Shown: one piece after another, positions 30,482 to 35,468 of the stretch
Layout: each line of letters starts with the position of its first letter
Position numbering within the stretch: the first letter of the stretch is position 1
Translations under genes and position numbers: made by a program
Notes under the pieces: model-generated
Databases searched by the model: none
Seen by the model: only the letters and a program-made list of their open reading frames with translations
Told to the model about the DNA's origin: nothing
NCBI RefSeq assembly: GCF_010092425.1
Contig: NZ_CP048030.1
Span: 2,491,501-2,555,500 of the forward strand
Origin: Sinimarinibacterium sp. NLF-5-8
GTDB taxonomy: Bacteria; Pseudomonadota; Gammaproteobacteria; Nevskiales; Nevskiaceae
Direction of reading: 5' to 3'
Length of the DNA stretch: 64,000 bases

Positions 30482-30560
30482 ACGGTGGCCGGGGGAACCT
30501 TTGACCGGGTTTGGGCGTCTACGCAAACACCCTTGTGATCCTTGCCCTGCGCTTGACGAC

Positions 30561-31139
30561 ATGCCCGATATGCCTGCCAACGCGATCTATCCGCCGCTGA
30601 CCCGTTACCACCCTGTTGCACAGTTGCTGCACTGGCTTACGGCGCTGCTGATCGTTGCCGCCTTTGGGCTGGGGCTGTACATGGTGGGGCTGAAAATATC
30701 ACCCACCAAACTCAAGCTGTTTTCGTATCACAAATGGATTGGCGTGACGATTTTTGCCGTTGTCGTGCTGCGCCTGATGTGGCGCTGGCACTGTCCGCCG
30801 CCTGCGCCGGTGCCGATGCCGGACTGGCAGCGCCGCGCCGCCGATGTGGGACACAAAATGCTCTACGCCCTGTTGCTGCTGGTGCCGCTGGCGGGCTGGC
30901 TGTCCAGCTCTGCCAAAGGCTTTCAAACGGTTTATTTTGCGGTGTTGCCCATCCCCGATCTGATCGGCAAAAACGCAGAAGCAGGCGAGGCTCTGCAAAC
31001 CCTGCACTGGGCGCTGAACAAAACCCTGCTGCTGCTGGTTTTGGGGCACATCGTGGCGGCGCTCAAACATCAATTCATCGATCGCGACGGCACGTTGCTG
31101 CGCATGTTGCCGGCGCTTTTTACGCGGAGAAACACATGA
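30561..31139 (+). CDS. Cytochrome b561
   Basis: The 192-residue protein has four membrane helices and the haem-ligand histidines of the bacterial b561 family: HPVAQLLHW near the start, SYHKWIG, DVGHKMLYALL and the LHWALNKTLLLLVLGHIVAALKH region. Such proteins move electrons from quinol to periplasmic acceptors, or the reverse. The first ATG (30561) or the one at 30570 may be used. Its stop overlaps the YceI gene by four bases, so the two are translationally coupled. Confidence 0.92.
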   Translation: MPDMPANAIYPPLTRYHPVAQLLHWLTALLIVAAFGLGLYMVGLKISPTKLKLFSYHKWIGVTIFAVVVLRLMWRWHCPPPAPVPMPDWQRRAADVGHKMLYALLLLVPLAGWLSSSAKGFQTVYFAVLPIPDLIGKNAEAGEALQTLHWALNKTLLLLVLGHIVAALKHQFIDRDGTLLRMLPALFTRRNT

Positions 31140-31705
31140 AAAATACCAAGGCTGCGCGCGCGCTCGGCGCTGCGGCAGTGCTTGCGCTGACCACCAGTGC
31201 CTGGGCTGCCCCGCGCGCGCTCGACCCGGCCAAGAGTCAGATTAATTTCAGCATCAAACAAATGGGCGTGGCCGTCAGCGGCCAGTTCAAAAAGTTTGAG
31301 GCGCAAGTCGATCTGGACGAAGCCGCGCCCGAAAACACCGCTGCGCAGGTGACGGTGAGCATTGCCAGCCTCACCACCGGCAACGCCGATGCGGATGAGA
31401 TCGCGCTGGACACACCGTGGCTCGACAGACTCGGTTTTCCCACTGCGCAGTTCAAAAGTACCGCCATCAAGGCGTTGGGCGGCGACCGTTATGAAGCCAG
31501 CGGCACGCTCACCATTCGCGGCAACAGCCGCAACATCCGCGTGCCGATGCAGCTCAAGCCACAAGACGGCGGTGCGGTGGTTGCCAGCGGCGAGTTCACC
31601 CTCGTGCGCACCGACTTTGGCATTGGCGGCGGCGAATGGAACGAAGGCGATCTGGTCGCAGCACAGGTCCCCGTCACGTTCAGCCTGTGGCTGGATGCCC
31701 CCTGA
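31136..31705 (+). CDS. YceI-family periplasmic lipid-binding protein (first copy)
   Basis: YceI proteins are lipocalin-like beta-barrels that bind polyisoprenoids such as quinones in the periplasm. The 189-residue product has a Sec signal peptide ending AWAAP and the family pattern DPAKSQINFSIKQMGVAVSG and FKSTAIKALGGDRYEASGTLTIRG. The ATG lies inside the b561 stop (ATGA overlap). The b561-YceI pair is common and suggests that it supplies or senses a quinone-like lipid for the b561 haem protein. Confidence 0.92.
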   Translation: MKNTKAARALGAAAVLALTTSAWAAPRALDPAKSQINFSIKQMGVAVSGQFKKFEAQVDLDEAAPENTAAQVTVSIASLTTGNADADEIALDTPWLDRLGFPTAQFKSTAIKALGGDRYEASGTLTIRGNSRNIRVPMQLKPQDGGAVVASGEFTLVRTDFGIGGGEWNEGDLVAAQVPVTFSLWLDAP

Positions 31706-31766
31706 TTTTTGATTTTTCACCCACCCATCACCACGGATCAACCCGGATAAAACCACGGATAAAGCC

Positions 31767-32351
31767 ATGAACAAAACCTTGAACAAAACCCTGCTGGCCT
31801 CGGCCCTGACGCTGGCTCTGGGCACGGTTGTCCAACAAGCTGCGGCAGCCGATGTCTACACGCTGGACAATCATCACACCTATGCGATGTTTGAAATCAA
31901 CCACCTTGGGTTTTCCACCCTGCGCGGCGGCTTTACCAAAATTGATGGCGATTTGAACGTGGATTTGGCCGCCAAGACCGGCAGCGTCAACATCACCATC
32001 GACGCCAACTCCCTGCAAACCGCCGTACCGGATTTCACCACCCACCTCAAATCCGCAGATTTTTTTGAAGTGGAGAAGTATCCGACGCTGACCTTCAAAT
32101 CCACCGCGTTCAAGTTTGAAGGCGAGCAGCTCAGCAAGGTGGAAGGCGACCTGACCATGCACGGCGTCACCCAACCGATCACGCTGGACGTGACCGCCTT
32201 CAGATGCGGCGAACATCCGATGAAGAAAAAACCGCATTGCGGTGCGGACGCACAAGCCGTCATCAAGCGCAGTGATTGGGGCATCAGCACCTACGTGCCG
32301 CATGTGGCCGATGAGGTCACGCTCAAGATTGAAATTGAAGCCACCCGCTGA
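31767..32351 (+). CDS. YceI-family periplasmic protein (second copy)
   Basis: The 194-residue paralogue has a signal peptide ending AAAADVY, the classical YceI start YTLDNHHTYAMFEINHLGFS, TFKSTAF and DWGISTYVPHVADEVTL. It is closer to E. coli YceI than the copy 61 bp upstream. Before its ATG lies a short direct repeat of ACCACGGAT. Two different YceI proteins next to b561 suggest distinct ligands or partners. Confidence 0.93.
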   Translation: MNKTLNKTLLASALTLALGTVVQQAAAADVYTLDNHHTYAMFEINHLGFSTLRGGFTKIDGDLNVDLAAKTGSVNITIDANSLQTAVPDFTTHLKSADFFEVEKYPTLTFKSTAFKFEGEQLSKVEGDLTMHGVTQPITLDVTAFRCGEHPMKKKPHCGADAQAVIKRSDWGISTYVPHVADEVTLKIEIEATR

Positions 32352-32498: not shown

Positions 32499-33029
32499 AT
32501 GAATAATGGGATACGCACAACACTGCTGCTGCTGGCGGTGACGCTTTCAAGCCCTGCCAGTTTTGCGCTGGAAGTCGGGCAGAGTGCCCCGGCGGGTTTG
32601 CAGGCCGCATCCGAACAGGGCGAGGCGCTGAGCGTGGATGCCTTTGCCGGACAGGTGGTGTATGTGGATTTTTGGGCGTCGTGGTGCGCGCCGTGCTTGC
32701 AGGCCATGCCGGAATATGAGGCGCTGTACCAGAAGTATCGGGATCAGGGCTTTACCGTGCTGGCGGTGAATGTGGACACCCATCACCGCGCGGCGCTCAA
32801 AACCCTGCAGCGGATCAAGGTCAGCTATCCGGTGGTGTTTGACCCGGATGGCCAATGGCCCGATGCCTATCAGGTCAAGGCCATGCCCAGTGCGTATCTG
32901 ATTGGGCGCGATGGCAGGGTGCAGTGGGTGCAGCCTGGTTTTCGCAGTGCTGAATTGCCGCAGATCGAGGCGGCGATCACCGCCGCAGTGCAGCAGCCCG
33001 GCGCCGCTTCACAGGAGAGAGAACCATGA
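32499..33029 (+). CDS. TlpA-like periplasmic thioredoxin
   Basis: The 176-residue protein has a signal peptide (residues about 1-24, ending SFALE) and a thioredoxin fold with active site WCAPC in DFWASWCAPCLQAMP. A cis-proline segment (VKAMPSAYLIGRDG) follows. TlpA/ResA-type proteins reduce disulfides in the periplasm, often for cytochrome or metal-centre assembly. It overlaps the DUF4266 lipoprotein by four bases and begins a TlpA-DUF4266-DUF3570-ApbE series. Start ATG chosen for the signal peptide. Confidence 0.92.
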   Translation: MNNGIRTTLLLLAVTLSSPASFALEVGQSAPAGLQAASEQGEALSVDAFAGQVVYVDFWASWCAPCLQAMPEYEALYQKYRDQGFTVLAVNVDTHHRAALKTLQRIKVSYPVVFDPDGQWPDAYQVKAMPSAYLIGRDGRVQWVQPGFRSAELPQIEAAITAAVQQPGAASQEREP

Positions 33030-33277
33030 TGTCTGATCGAACCGCGCGCGCGCTGTGGCTTGGCTTGCTGGCCGCAGTAAGCACCGTCGGCGTCAGTGGT
33101 TGCACGGTGTTTGAGGTGCAGCCGGTACAGCCGTGGCAGCGCGGTGATCTGGCGCGCGCGGAAATGGCGCTGGAGGTCGATCCGCTGCTTTCGGGATTTC
33201 GCCAGCATGTCGAAGTAAGCAAGGAAGCCGCGCGCGGGGGCACGGCGCTGGCCGGGGGCGGTTGCGGCTGTAACTGA
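33026..33277 (+). CDS. DUF4266 small lipoprotein
   Basis: The 83-residue product has a lipoprotein signal with lipobox VSGC and the acylated cysteine at residue 26. The DUF4266 core VQPWQRGDLARAEMAL follows. The C-terminus is a flexible Gly-rich tail ending GGCGCN, so two cysteines are spaced CxC at the very end and could bind metal or form disulfides. The function of the family is unknown; it is regularly found beside DUF3570 and ApbE genes. A second ATG follows immediately (MM). Confidence 0.85.
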   Translation: MMSDRTARALWLGLLAAVSTVGVSGCTVFEVQPVQPWQRGDLARAEMALEVDPLLSGFRQHVEVSKEAARGGTALAGGGCGCN

Positions 33278-33324: not shown

Positions 33325-34545
33325 ATGACCACACAGGCCATTGAACAGGCCGGACAGCCCGAAGCCGCCGCCGCGCGCGCGCCGCAGACGGCGCTGGCGG
33401 CGCTGACGGCCGCAGCCCTGGCGCTGCCGGGACTGGCACAGGCACAAATCCAGACCGATTACCTGTATGCGCACTACCGCGAAGGCGATCTGGCCGCTGA
33501 TCAGGTGCAGGCCGGGCAAACGCGCGAGCGTTATCAAATCGACACGCATCAATTCAAGCTGGCGCTGCCGCTGGCCGACGAGCAAGCGATGACCGCCGCC
33601 ATCACCTACGAAACCATGAGCGGTGCCTCGCCGTGGTGGGTGCAGCCCGACATCAACGGCAAGCCGGTGCTGGTGATGAGCCGCGCGAGTATTCGGGAAC
33701 AGCGGGTGGATACGCAGTTCAGCTACCTGCGCGCGCTGGCGGGGATCGACTGGACGGCCACGCTGGGCTATTCCCACGAAAACGACTACGACGCCCTCAG
33801 CGGTGGCCTGCAAGCCGAGTTCACCCCCGAAGGCTCGGCGCTGACGTACAGCGCCGGATTGGGCTACTCCTATGACCGTCTCAACCCCACCGTTGGCGCC
33901 AGCAGCACGGATGTCATCGACAAGGCCGACAAGGACAGCCTGAGCCTGTTTGCCGGCAGCACCTGGACGATCAACCCGCAAACCTTGCTGCAAACCGCCG
34001 TCAGCTATGGCCGCGATCACGGTTATTTGAGCGATCCGTACAAGCGCGCGTACATCGTGGATTTGAGCGATGCCATCCGCGATGCGCGCCCCGGCAAGCG
34101 CAACGGCCTGGCCCTTTCGGCGCGGCTGCGCCACTACCTGCCGACGCTGGCAGCGGCGCTGCATGTGAATTACCGCTATTACGCAGACGACTGGAAAGTC
34201 TCGTCCCACACCCTGGAGCTGGCCTGGCATCAGGTGCTGGCACAAAGCTGGCGGCTGTCGCCCAGCGTGCGTTGGTACAGCCAGTCACAGGCCACGTTTT
34301 ATGCGCCGTATTACCAAAACCTGCGCGCCGATGGCTATGCCAGCAGCGATTACCGGCTGGCGCCGTATGGCGCGGTGACCTTGGGTATTGATCTGCGCAA
34401 AGCCCTGCCGCAGGACTGGGAAGCAGGCGGTGGCGTGCAGTGGTACCAGGCGCGCGCCGATTACGCGCTGGGCAACGTGCGGCTTGCCCATCCCGGTTTG
34501 CTTGAATACTGGCTGCTGAATCTGCGCTTGAGCAAACGCTTCTAG
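33325..34545 (+). CDS. DUF3570 outer-membrane beta-barrel protein with ApbE-like flavinylation motif
   Basis: The 406-residue protein has a signal peptide (long n-region, hydrophobic core about residues 22-38, cleavage after LAQA) and then mostly amphipathic beta-strands ending in an aromatic C-terminus (RLSKRF), typical of outer-membrane barrels. Residues 96-102 read ETMSGAS, which resembles the DxxSGA(T/S) site to which ApbE attaches FMN on RnfG/NqrC, but with Glu for Asp. It is 26 bases upstream of apbE. Family function is unestablished; a flavin-carrying barrel is inferred. Confidence 0.85.
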   Translation: MTTQAIEQAGQPEAAAARAPQTALAALTAAALALPGLAQAQIQTDYLYAHYREGDLAADQVQAGQTRERYQIDTHQFKLALPLADEQAMTAAITYETMSGASPWWVQPDINGKPVLVMSRASIREQRVDTQFSYLRALAGIDWTATLGYSHENDYDALSGGLQAEFTPEGSALTYSAGLGYSYDRLNPTVGASSTDVIDKADKDSLSLFAGSTWTINPQTLLQTAVSYGRDHGYLSDPYKRAYIVDLSDAIRDARPGKRNGLALSARLRHYLPTLAAALHVNYRYYADDWKVSSHTLELAWHQVLAQSWRLSPSVRWYSQSQATFYAPYYQNLRADGYASSDYRLAPYGAVTLGIDLRKALPQDWEAGGGVQWYQARADYALGNVRLAHPGLLEYWLLNLRLSKRF

Positions 34546-34571
34546 GCGCGCGCTTAAAAGTGGGCGGCACC

Positions 34572-35468
34572 ATGCACGTTCATCACTTTCACGGCCTTGG
34601 CGGCCCCTGCGCGCTGCATCTGGATGAAGCCGACGCCGCTTTGCGCGCGCGCGCCATCGCCATTGCCGAGGCCGAAGTCCAGCGCATCGAACACAAATAC
34701 TCGCGCTATCGCGCCGACAGCGTGCTGTCGCACATCAACGCCCAGGCCGGGCGCGGGCGCGCGGTGACGGTGGATGCCGAAACCACGGCACTGCTCAACT
34801 ACGCCGCCACGGCTTATACGCAAAGCGGCGGCCTGTTCGACATCACCTCCGGGGTGCTGCGCCGGGCGTGGGATTTCAAAACCGCACGTGTGCCCACGCA
34901 GGCGCAGATCGACGCACTGTTGCCGCTGGTGGGCTGGTCAAAACTGCGCTGGCAATCGCCGCATCTGCATCTGCCGCTGGCGGGGATGGAATTGGACTTT
35001 GGCGGCTTTGGCAAGGAATACGCGGTGGATCGTGTGGCCGGCTTGCTGTTGGCGGCGGGCGTGCGTCATGCGCTGGTGGATTTTGCCGGTGATTTGCGCG
35101 TGCTCGGCGCGCGCGCCGATCAAACGGCGTGGCCGATCGGCATTCAGCATCCGCGCCAGAGCGGCGCCATTGCCACGCTGCCGATGACCCACGGCGCGCT
35201 GGCCACCAGCGGCGACTATGAACGCGGCTTTGTGCACGAAGGCCAGCGTTACAGCCATCTGCTCAATCCGCAGACCGGCTGGCCGGTGCAGGGGCTGATG
35301 TCGGTGAGCGTGCGCGCCGATCAGTGTCTGGTTGCCGGCACCGCCACCACCTGCGCGCTGCTGATGGGCGCGCGCGGCAAACGCTGGCTGGCCGCGCTGG
35401 GACTGCCGCATTTGTGGGTGGATGCGGCAGGCGCACCCGGCGGCAGCATCGCCGCTGCTGCGACGTAA
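34572..35468 (+). CDS. apbE: ApbE-family FAD:protein FMN transferase, non-secreted variant
   Basis: ApbE transfers FMN from FAD onto a Thr/Ser of target proteins. The 298-residue protein has GGLFDITSGVLRRAWDF, LDFGGFGKEYAVDRVAG, the ATSGDYER segment and YSHLLNPQTGWPV, all ApbE hallmarks. The usual AD-A-x-x-T metal motif near the C-terminus appears as VAGTATT, with Gly for the Asp. No signal peptide or lipobox is present. An upstream GTG (34560) adds only four residues. Position directly after DUF3570 suggests that protein is its substrate. Confidence 0.9.
   Translation: MHVHHFHGLGGPCALHLDEADAALRARAIAIAEAEVQRIEHKYSRYRADSVLSHINAQAGRGRAVTVDAETTALLNYAATAYTQSGGLFDITSGVLRRAWDFKTARVPTQAQIDALLPLVGWSKLRWQSPHLHLPLAGMELDFGGFGKEYAVDRVAGLLLAAGVRHALVDFAGDLRVLGARADQTAWPIGIQHPRQSGAIATLPMTHGALATSGDYERGFVHEGQRYSHLLNPQTGWPVQGLMSVSVRADQCLVAGTATTCALLMGARGKRWLAALGLPHLWVDAAGAPGGSIAAAAT

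Follow-up and report, generated by a model that had tools for sequence, protein, structure and literature searches.

A DUF3570 operon in Sinimarinibacterium sp. NLF-5-8 predicted to couple a leaderless ApbE to a flavinylated outer-membrane barrel

The 64,000-nt stretch of contig NZ_CP048030.1 from Sinimarinibacterium sp. NLF-5-8 analysed here (hereafter, the window) contains an operon whose genes, all on the plus strand, encode in this order a TlpA-like thioredoxin, a DUF4266 protein, a DUF3570 protein, and ApbE. The first gene (32499..33029) specifies a TlpA/ResA-like exported thioredoxin with the motif WASWCAPC, and the second (33026..33277, with its ATG at either 33026 or 33029) a small lipoprotein of family PF14086, recognizable by the lipobox VSGC (Cys codon at 33101) and by a C-terminal CGCN followed by the stop codon (33263..33277), which we propose to be a redox-active tail. 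The ORF at 33325..34545 matches DUF3570 (PF12094) with an E-value of 5.3e-64 and 217 bits against a Pfam cut-off of 25, and codes for a 406-aa protein that is devoid of Cys, ends in KRF, that is, with a C-terminal Phe, and is predicted to fold as a 16-strand outer-membrane barrel. Translation and Pfam search thereby bear out the first-pass annotation, which had read this ORF as a DUF3570 protein with an ApbE-like motif, ETMSGAS, at residues 96-102; its further statement that apbE starts 26 bases downstream is equally accurate, as the DUF3570 stop codon occupies 34543-34545 and the apbE ATG lies at 34572. The product of apbE (34572..35468, with a GTG at 34560 as an alternative start) is a 298-aa PF02424 protein (E 1.4e-74) that belongs to a leaderless clade.

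Flavinylation of DUF3570 by ApbE is established for the family and is not new. The DUF3570 protein of Chlorobium luteolum was flavinylated by its cognate ApbE upon co-expression in E. coli, and the signal was lost only after the Ser residues of two [S/T]GA[S/T] sites had both been changed (Meheust 2021; PMC8238504). The same source describes clusters of genes for thioredoxin-like proteins, DUF4266 proteins with a C-terminal CxC, DUF3570, and ApbE, some including DsbD and 316 without it. The window cluster likewise holds apbE, a DUF4266 gene with a CxC tail, and a thioredoxin-like gene, and it has in common with the Chlorobium luteolum system the Pfam family, the [S/T]GA[S/T] motif, and the linkage of apbE. 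It departs from that system in having one intact site and no DsbD in the operon, and in an ApbE that lacks a leader and carries an altered active-site signature, two traits on which the available passages of PMC8238504 are silent. These passages also give neither a barrel fold nor an outer-membrane location for DUF3570; the words 'barrel' and 'porin' are absent from the available main text, where the outer membrane is mentioned once, for siderophore receptors. In the accessible part of Huang et al. 2024 (PMC11334425; preprint PMC10979944), there is likewise a single mention of the outer membrane, as a place where flavinylation substrates occur, with DUF3570 unnamed. Our literature search on DUF3570/PF12094 or DUF4266/PF14086 retrieved PMC8238504 alone and, judged by titles and abstract starts, no paper on a flavinylated outer-membrane barrel; neither did the literature searched provide a published account of a leaderless ApbE lineage, an outward-facing site, or a conserved leader in such systems.

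To place the window protein within its family, DUF3570 sequences were drawn from whole-genome searches, in which the gene turned up in 33 of 61 relatives and, across the phylum, in 29 of 398 genomes (59 loci kept), and from one scan of named genomes, of which the best 80 of 458 relatives were kept (the 80-locus set). The resulting 139 loci, minus nine duplicates and the long L041, yielded an alignment of 129 distinct proteins. Beyond this Proteobacteria/Myxococcota set, the comparison extends to two Hymenobacter plasmid loci. Across the 121 rows that remain once L047 and seven rows of an 'IDV' class with eroded sites are omitted, the Gly of site 1 (33610..33630, plus strand; FMN predicted on Ser102) is kept without exception (121/121), and the strict tetrad [ST]G[AS][ST] occurs in 115. 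This conservation, which continues past the motif (ETMSGASPW), rules out a chance occurrence of ETMSGAS. The Glu that the first-pass annotation had noted in place of Asp is genuine and is the rule within the window's DUF3570 clade; it poses no obstacle to flavinylation because in another ApbE substrate, according to the available text of the review from which the motif rule is taken (PMC12052999), replacing Asp with Ala had a minor effect.

A second site, which the first-pass annotation did not mention, is conserved in the window's clade, 20 residues past the first, and reads [ST]GA[ST] in 81 of 85 clade rows, the remaining four being SRAS (window), TAAT, SGST, and SGPS. The window protein therefore likely bears a single FMN, since next to an intact SGAS at site 1 its site 2 (33679..33690, residues 119-122) has eroded to SRAS. 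Site 2 is probably weak rather than surely dead, because a change of Gly to Ala only about halved flavinylation in another ApbE substrate (PMC12052999, in the portion available). Covalent FMN, the central proposal of the first-pass annotation, is thus published for the family in the case of the Chlorobium luteolum protein (PMC8238504) and is strongly suggested for the window protein. As a separate observation, the long L041:1390-4125 encodes a DUF3570 protein of 912 residues with a C-terminal extension that matches no Pfam family over the cut-off.

A model of mature DUF3570 built from 81 aligned sequences reached a pLDDT of 95.9 and a pTM of 0.90, which lends support to the earlier claim of an outer-membrane β-barrel. 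DSSP assignments, counted by hand, give 16 strands, joined at one end of the barrel by seven turns of 2-6 residues and at the other by eight loops of 2-27 residues. Known outer-membrane barrels were the best structural matches (Z 21.7 for a BamA model, 20.9 for PelBC, and 19.5 for BcsC), a similarity that shows a shared fold only, and a search of solved structures with a DUF3570 sequence profile returned no match at E 10. The even number of strands, the short turns facing long loops, the C-terminal aromatic residue, and export, with a hydrophobic leader that by eye ends in AQA, are all those of an outer-membrane barrel. Both sites fall within one hairpin (model residues 57-83). The termini of known even-stranded outer-membrane barrels face the periplasm, and on this basis the hairpin would lie on the extracellular side. 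That side contains 234 of the 367 residues (64%) and 49 of the 50 most conserved positions (Mann-Whitney p 5.6e-7 for conservation on the outer versus the other side), a pattern that is unusual because the outer loops of outer-membrane barrels usually vary.

The window ApbE has no N-terminal secretion signal, unlike periplasmic (lipoprotein) ApbE; in this gene and in the adjoining apbE genes of the loci inspected, the start codon shortly precedes the domain. In a midpoint-rooted FastTree tree, a single split with support 0.959 sets the ApbEs linked to DUF3570 (118 tips) apart, evidence that is independent of the bit threshold, derived from a profile of adjacent ApbEs, by which they were first sorted. 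Of the 118 sequences in the clade, 112 of them distinct, none scored as signal-like, compared with 27 of 38 ApbEs outside it, where the other 11 also appear leaderless. The detector passes 119/129 DUF4266 proteins and 108/119 thioredoxins and is crude, as only 71/130 DUF3570 proteins pass although these must be exported. Because the cognate ApbE is devoid of an export signal, FMN is probably transferred inside the cell, before DUF3570 is exported. The DUF3570 leader itself, part of which reads LAALTAAALALPG in the window (33394..33432, plus strand; clade consensus LxALTxAALALPG), is unusually conserved: in the 80-locus set, its best 12 columns hold 2.97 bits of information (78 sequences), compared with 1.96 bits for DUF4266 leaders (76) and 1.81 bits for those of the thioredoxins (72). 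By eye, a similar pattern recurs in most of the other leaderless-ApbE class and is absent from seven IDV-class leaders. Such conservation would be compatible with a partner that meets the precursor in the cytosol, ahead of export, without proving one.

Alignment of 71 DUF4266 sequences revealed invariant K41, E42, and CGC, with the final Asn present in at least 90%, and the model of this protein consists of a helix and a disordered tail (pLDDT 72.7). DUF4266 itself contains a motif-like KEASSGG, but it was set aside as a second flavinylation substrate because the would-be FMN-bearing position is variable. A thioredoxin gene lies upstream of DUF3570 in 73 of the 80 loci. In the other main DUF3570 class (L002-L038, e.g., L033), the ATG of DUF3570 sits within the CGCN-stop codons of DUF4266, an overlap found in 26 of 132 such C-termini that suggests coupled translation.

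Collectively, these features incline us, with some reserve, toward an operon that makes a flavinylated outer-membrane redox barrel, tagged before export and passing electrons outward via the DUF4266 tail and FMN. The leaderless ApbE would move FMN from FAD to Ser102 of the DUF3570 precursor prior to export, the residue being indicated by the published homologue and the cytosolic compartment by the absent leader. The precursor would then cross Sec unfolded, together with its FMN, and insert into the outer membrane as the predicted 16-strand barrel, with the FMN hairpin between strands 3 and 4 predicted at the extracellular end, amid the most conserved residues. A DsbD-like protein could supply reducing equivalents to the TlpA-like thioredoxin, which would hand them on to the CGC thiols at the C-terminus of DUF4266. 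The tail of this lipoprotein, flexible and rich in Gly, may reach the FMN; a thiol tail that works as a swinging arm beside a flavin has its likeness in thioredoxin reductase. Electrons would leave the FMN for iron or a secreted redox protein, located on the cell surface or beyond it, a step that we infer, direction included, and that would amount to the route across the outer membrane which the first-pass annotation had thought possible. As modeled, an FMN on the outer hairpin would be separated by the membrane from the periplasmic thioredoxin and DUF4266, unless either the tail or the hairpin extends into the barrel lumen.

The genes that accompany the operon bear on whether electrons cross the membrane at all. 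There is no DsbD gene in the window operon, and the single DsbD_TM match of the genome (G000:C1:2768881-2769519) maps outside the window. Scanning one representative per cluster placed DsbD near the operon in 8 of 80 loci, RoxA-like large cytochrome c genes in 19 (e.g., L074 and L100), and DUF1588/DUF1592 cytochrome genes in 14; DUF1501 genes occur in 13/80. These minorities of loci with DsbD or large cytochrome-like proteins, along with the conserved association with a thioredoxin and a CxC lipoprotein, argue against a reading in which no electrons traverse the outer membrane. In that reading, the flavin would have a structural or regulatory role, or DUF3570 would act chiefly as a pore or transporter (e.g., for iron or copper), and the task of the thioredoxin and DUF4266 would be to mature thiols or handle metals. 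CxC tails are nonetheless able to bind metals, and the canonical glycines are missing from some DUF3570 proteins. The VIT1 iron transporter encoded in 25 DUF3570 clusters (PMC8238504, in the passages available) points in the same direction, and we regard this reading as rather unlikely. The upstream cytochrome b561 and YceI genes of the window (30501-32351) found no support as parts of the system: phmmer searches at E 1e-4 matched b561 or the second YceI in 0/80 loci, with fetched flanks shorter than 8 kb in some.

The distribution of the leaderless clade bears on whether DUF3570 is tagged before or after export. Membership, called across a score gap between 186 and 144 bits, was assigned to an ApbE in 31 of 33 relatives with DUF3570 versus 1 of 28 without it (Fisher 6.8e-14, a value that overstates independence because the compared genomes are kin). 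The two DUF3570 genomes without a clade ApbE are G015, of the IDV class, and G045, where DUF3570 lies at a contig end; the sole clade apbE without a detectable DUF3570 (G026:C53:3685-4508, L255) is split over two frames and is perhaps a relic. In 57 of 80 loci, clade apbE and DUF3570 share a strand and either overlap or are no more than 600 bases apart. Among 15 named loci whose fetched sequence contains no apbE, and with L132 (contig end) left out of the check, 13 of the genomes have a clade member elsewhere, which in some of them may belong to further DUF3570 copies; for L089, also at a contig end, none was found elsewhere in its genome.

The distribution and linkage of the leaderless gene thus weigh against flavinylation of DUF3570 after export, whether by the second, leader-bearing ApbE that the genome encodes or by one that leaves the cytosol through an unrecognized route, in which case the absent leader would be irrelevant. 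The window genome does encode a second, distant ApbE with a strong N-terminal hydrophobic segment. The expected substrate of this second ApbE is an NqrC-like FMN_bind protein, which the genome encodes within an nqr-like operon (Nqr genes recognized by reading). Further, in Hymenobacter DG25B a leader-bearing ApbE-family gene adjoins DUF4266 and a DUF3570 with SSAS at the site. On this evidence, we hold post-export tagging to be unlikely for the window operon. A Hymenobacter plasmid locus (L190:4015-6630) combines a DUF3570 broken into two ORFs (site SSAS) with an ApbE-family protein whose KG motif is altered to LQG.

The IDV class adds further counter-cases. Site 1 has Ser or Asn for Gly in six of nine IDV-class proteins and retains Gly in three (L056, a copy in L195, and a copy in L254, with a further low-scoring copy in G400 left out). 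Seven of the nine genomes are without a clade ApbE, and in the other two, G306 and G327, it stands beside another DUF3570 copy. IDV-class genes sit within a larger cluster, and in several genomes a leader-bearing or divergent ApbE is encoded 6-18 kb off. The covariation of motif and ApbE envisaged in the first-pass annotation is therefore largely but not strictly observed: it holds for the site-1 Gly outside the IDV class and L047 and for the genome-wide association of leaderless ApbE with DUF3570, and it is weakened by the three IDV-class proteins that keep Gly. Together with Hymenobacter, this class makes cytosolic tagging a feature of one branch rather than of the whole family. We do not claim for either that loss of the glycine means loss of flavin, because Gly to Ala only halved flavinylation elsewhere (PMC12052999, available portion). 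IDV clusters (L191-L196, L254) additionally encode small barrel proteins, an HZS_alpha-domain lipoprotein, a DUF1585-like protein, and an ApbE of another type.

The leaderless clade is further set apart by two linked changes in its active-site signature, KG to KE and AD to AG, which occur in 108/108 resolved distinct members and in 0/36 resolved others. In the window apbE, the Glu of KE is encoded at 35016-35018 and the Gly of AG at 35337-35339 (plus strand). The latter occupies the column equated by alignment with Asp285 of V. cholerae ApbE, the conserved catalytic Asp named in the available text of PMC12052999; this column is Gly in the window protein and in all 108 resolved distinct clade members, compared with 33 Asp and 3 Glu in the 36 resolved ApbEs outside the clade. 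The new Glu emerges two residues past a conserved GG, in the KE motif of the same proteins, and the Ser and His catalytic positions appear to be kept. An acidic active-site residue has apparently been relocated, the nearby Glu replacing Asp, and with Gly at the conserved catalytic position the enzymatic activity of the clade is not certain. It is nevertheless quite improbable that this ApbE is no flavin transferase but an FAD-binding assembly factor or FAD hydrolase, with SGAS as a structural turn, a reading to which the invariant Gly and the hairpin conservation beyond the motif would lend themselves, given the apparently retained Ser/His positions, the gained Glu, and the activity of the cognate Chlorobium ApbE on DUF3570 (PMC8238504, in the passages available), Chlorobium being outside the genomes compared.

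Returning to the favored flavinylated redox barrel, a bolder version can be formulated that we consider doubtful as a whole. A separate cytosolic ApbE lineage, whose acidic metal ligand would have shifted between loops (Asp to Gly in one, Gly to Glu in the other), would recognize the conserved DUF3570 leader and attach FMN to a Sec substrate that is still unfolded and not yet exported. FMN would then be displayed by the barrel at the surface, and the CGC tail of DUF4266 would enter the lumen from the periplasmic side with electrons, altogether a haem-free thiol-flavin conduit.

Among known systems, NqrC/RnfG with their periplasmic lipoprotein ApbE share with the window operon the ApbE family and the D/E-x-x-[S/T]-G-A-[S/T] logic. 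They differ in that the window substrate is a predicted outer-membrane barrel without an FMN_bind domain and its ApbE is leaderless, with KE/AG instead of KG/AD. In porin-cytochrome conduits of the MtrAB type, a barrel with a multihaem cytochrome inside it aids the passage of electrons across the outer membrane. The likeness to these lies in the idea of a barrel conduit, a function that is putative for DUF3570; unlike MtrAB, neither DUF3570 (no Cys) nor DUF4266 (no CxxCH) has a haem motif, and predicted FMN and a CxC tail would take its place. The cytosolic ApbE that serves a soluble fumarate reductase in Klebsiella pneumoniae also lacks a signal peptide, but its substrate stays in the cytosol (PMC12052999, in the portion available), whereas that of the window would travel to the outer membrane.

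DUF3570 systems are widespread and may bear on how electrons pass the Gram-negative outer membrane without haem wires. Should FMN be fixed on the cytosolic precursor, an outer-membrane protein would be translocated by Sec and assembled with a covalent cofactor already in place, and the source of FAD would be explained. The signature of the ApbE clade and its co-occurrence with DUF3570 offer a simple sequence test for systems that would perform cytosolic tagging, and the operon is small enough to be rebuilt in a laboratory strain. Finally, the whole window is strongly enriched in GCGCGC (475 occurrences versus 193 expected from dinucleotides) and contains GCGCGCGC 185 times, against 29 expected (sd 6). 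The GCGCGC excess is absent from 15 loci of relatives and others (ratio 0 to 1.0), and in the window it resembles a HIP1-type repeat word.
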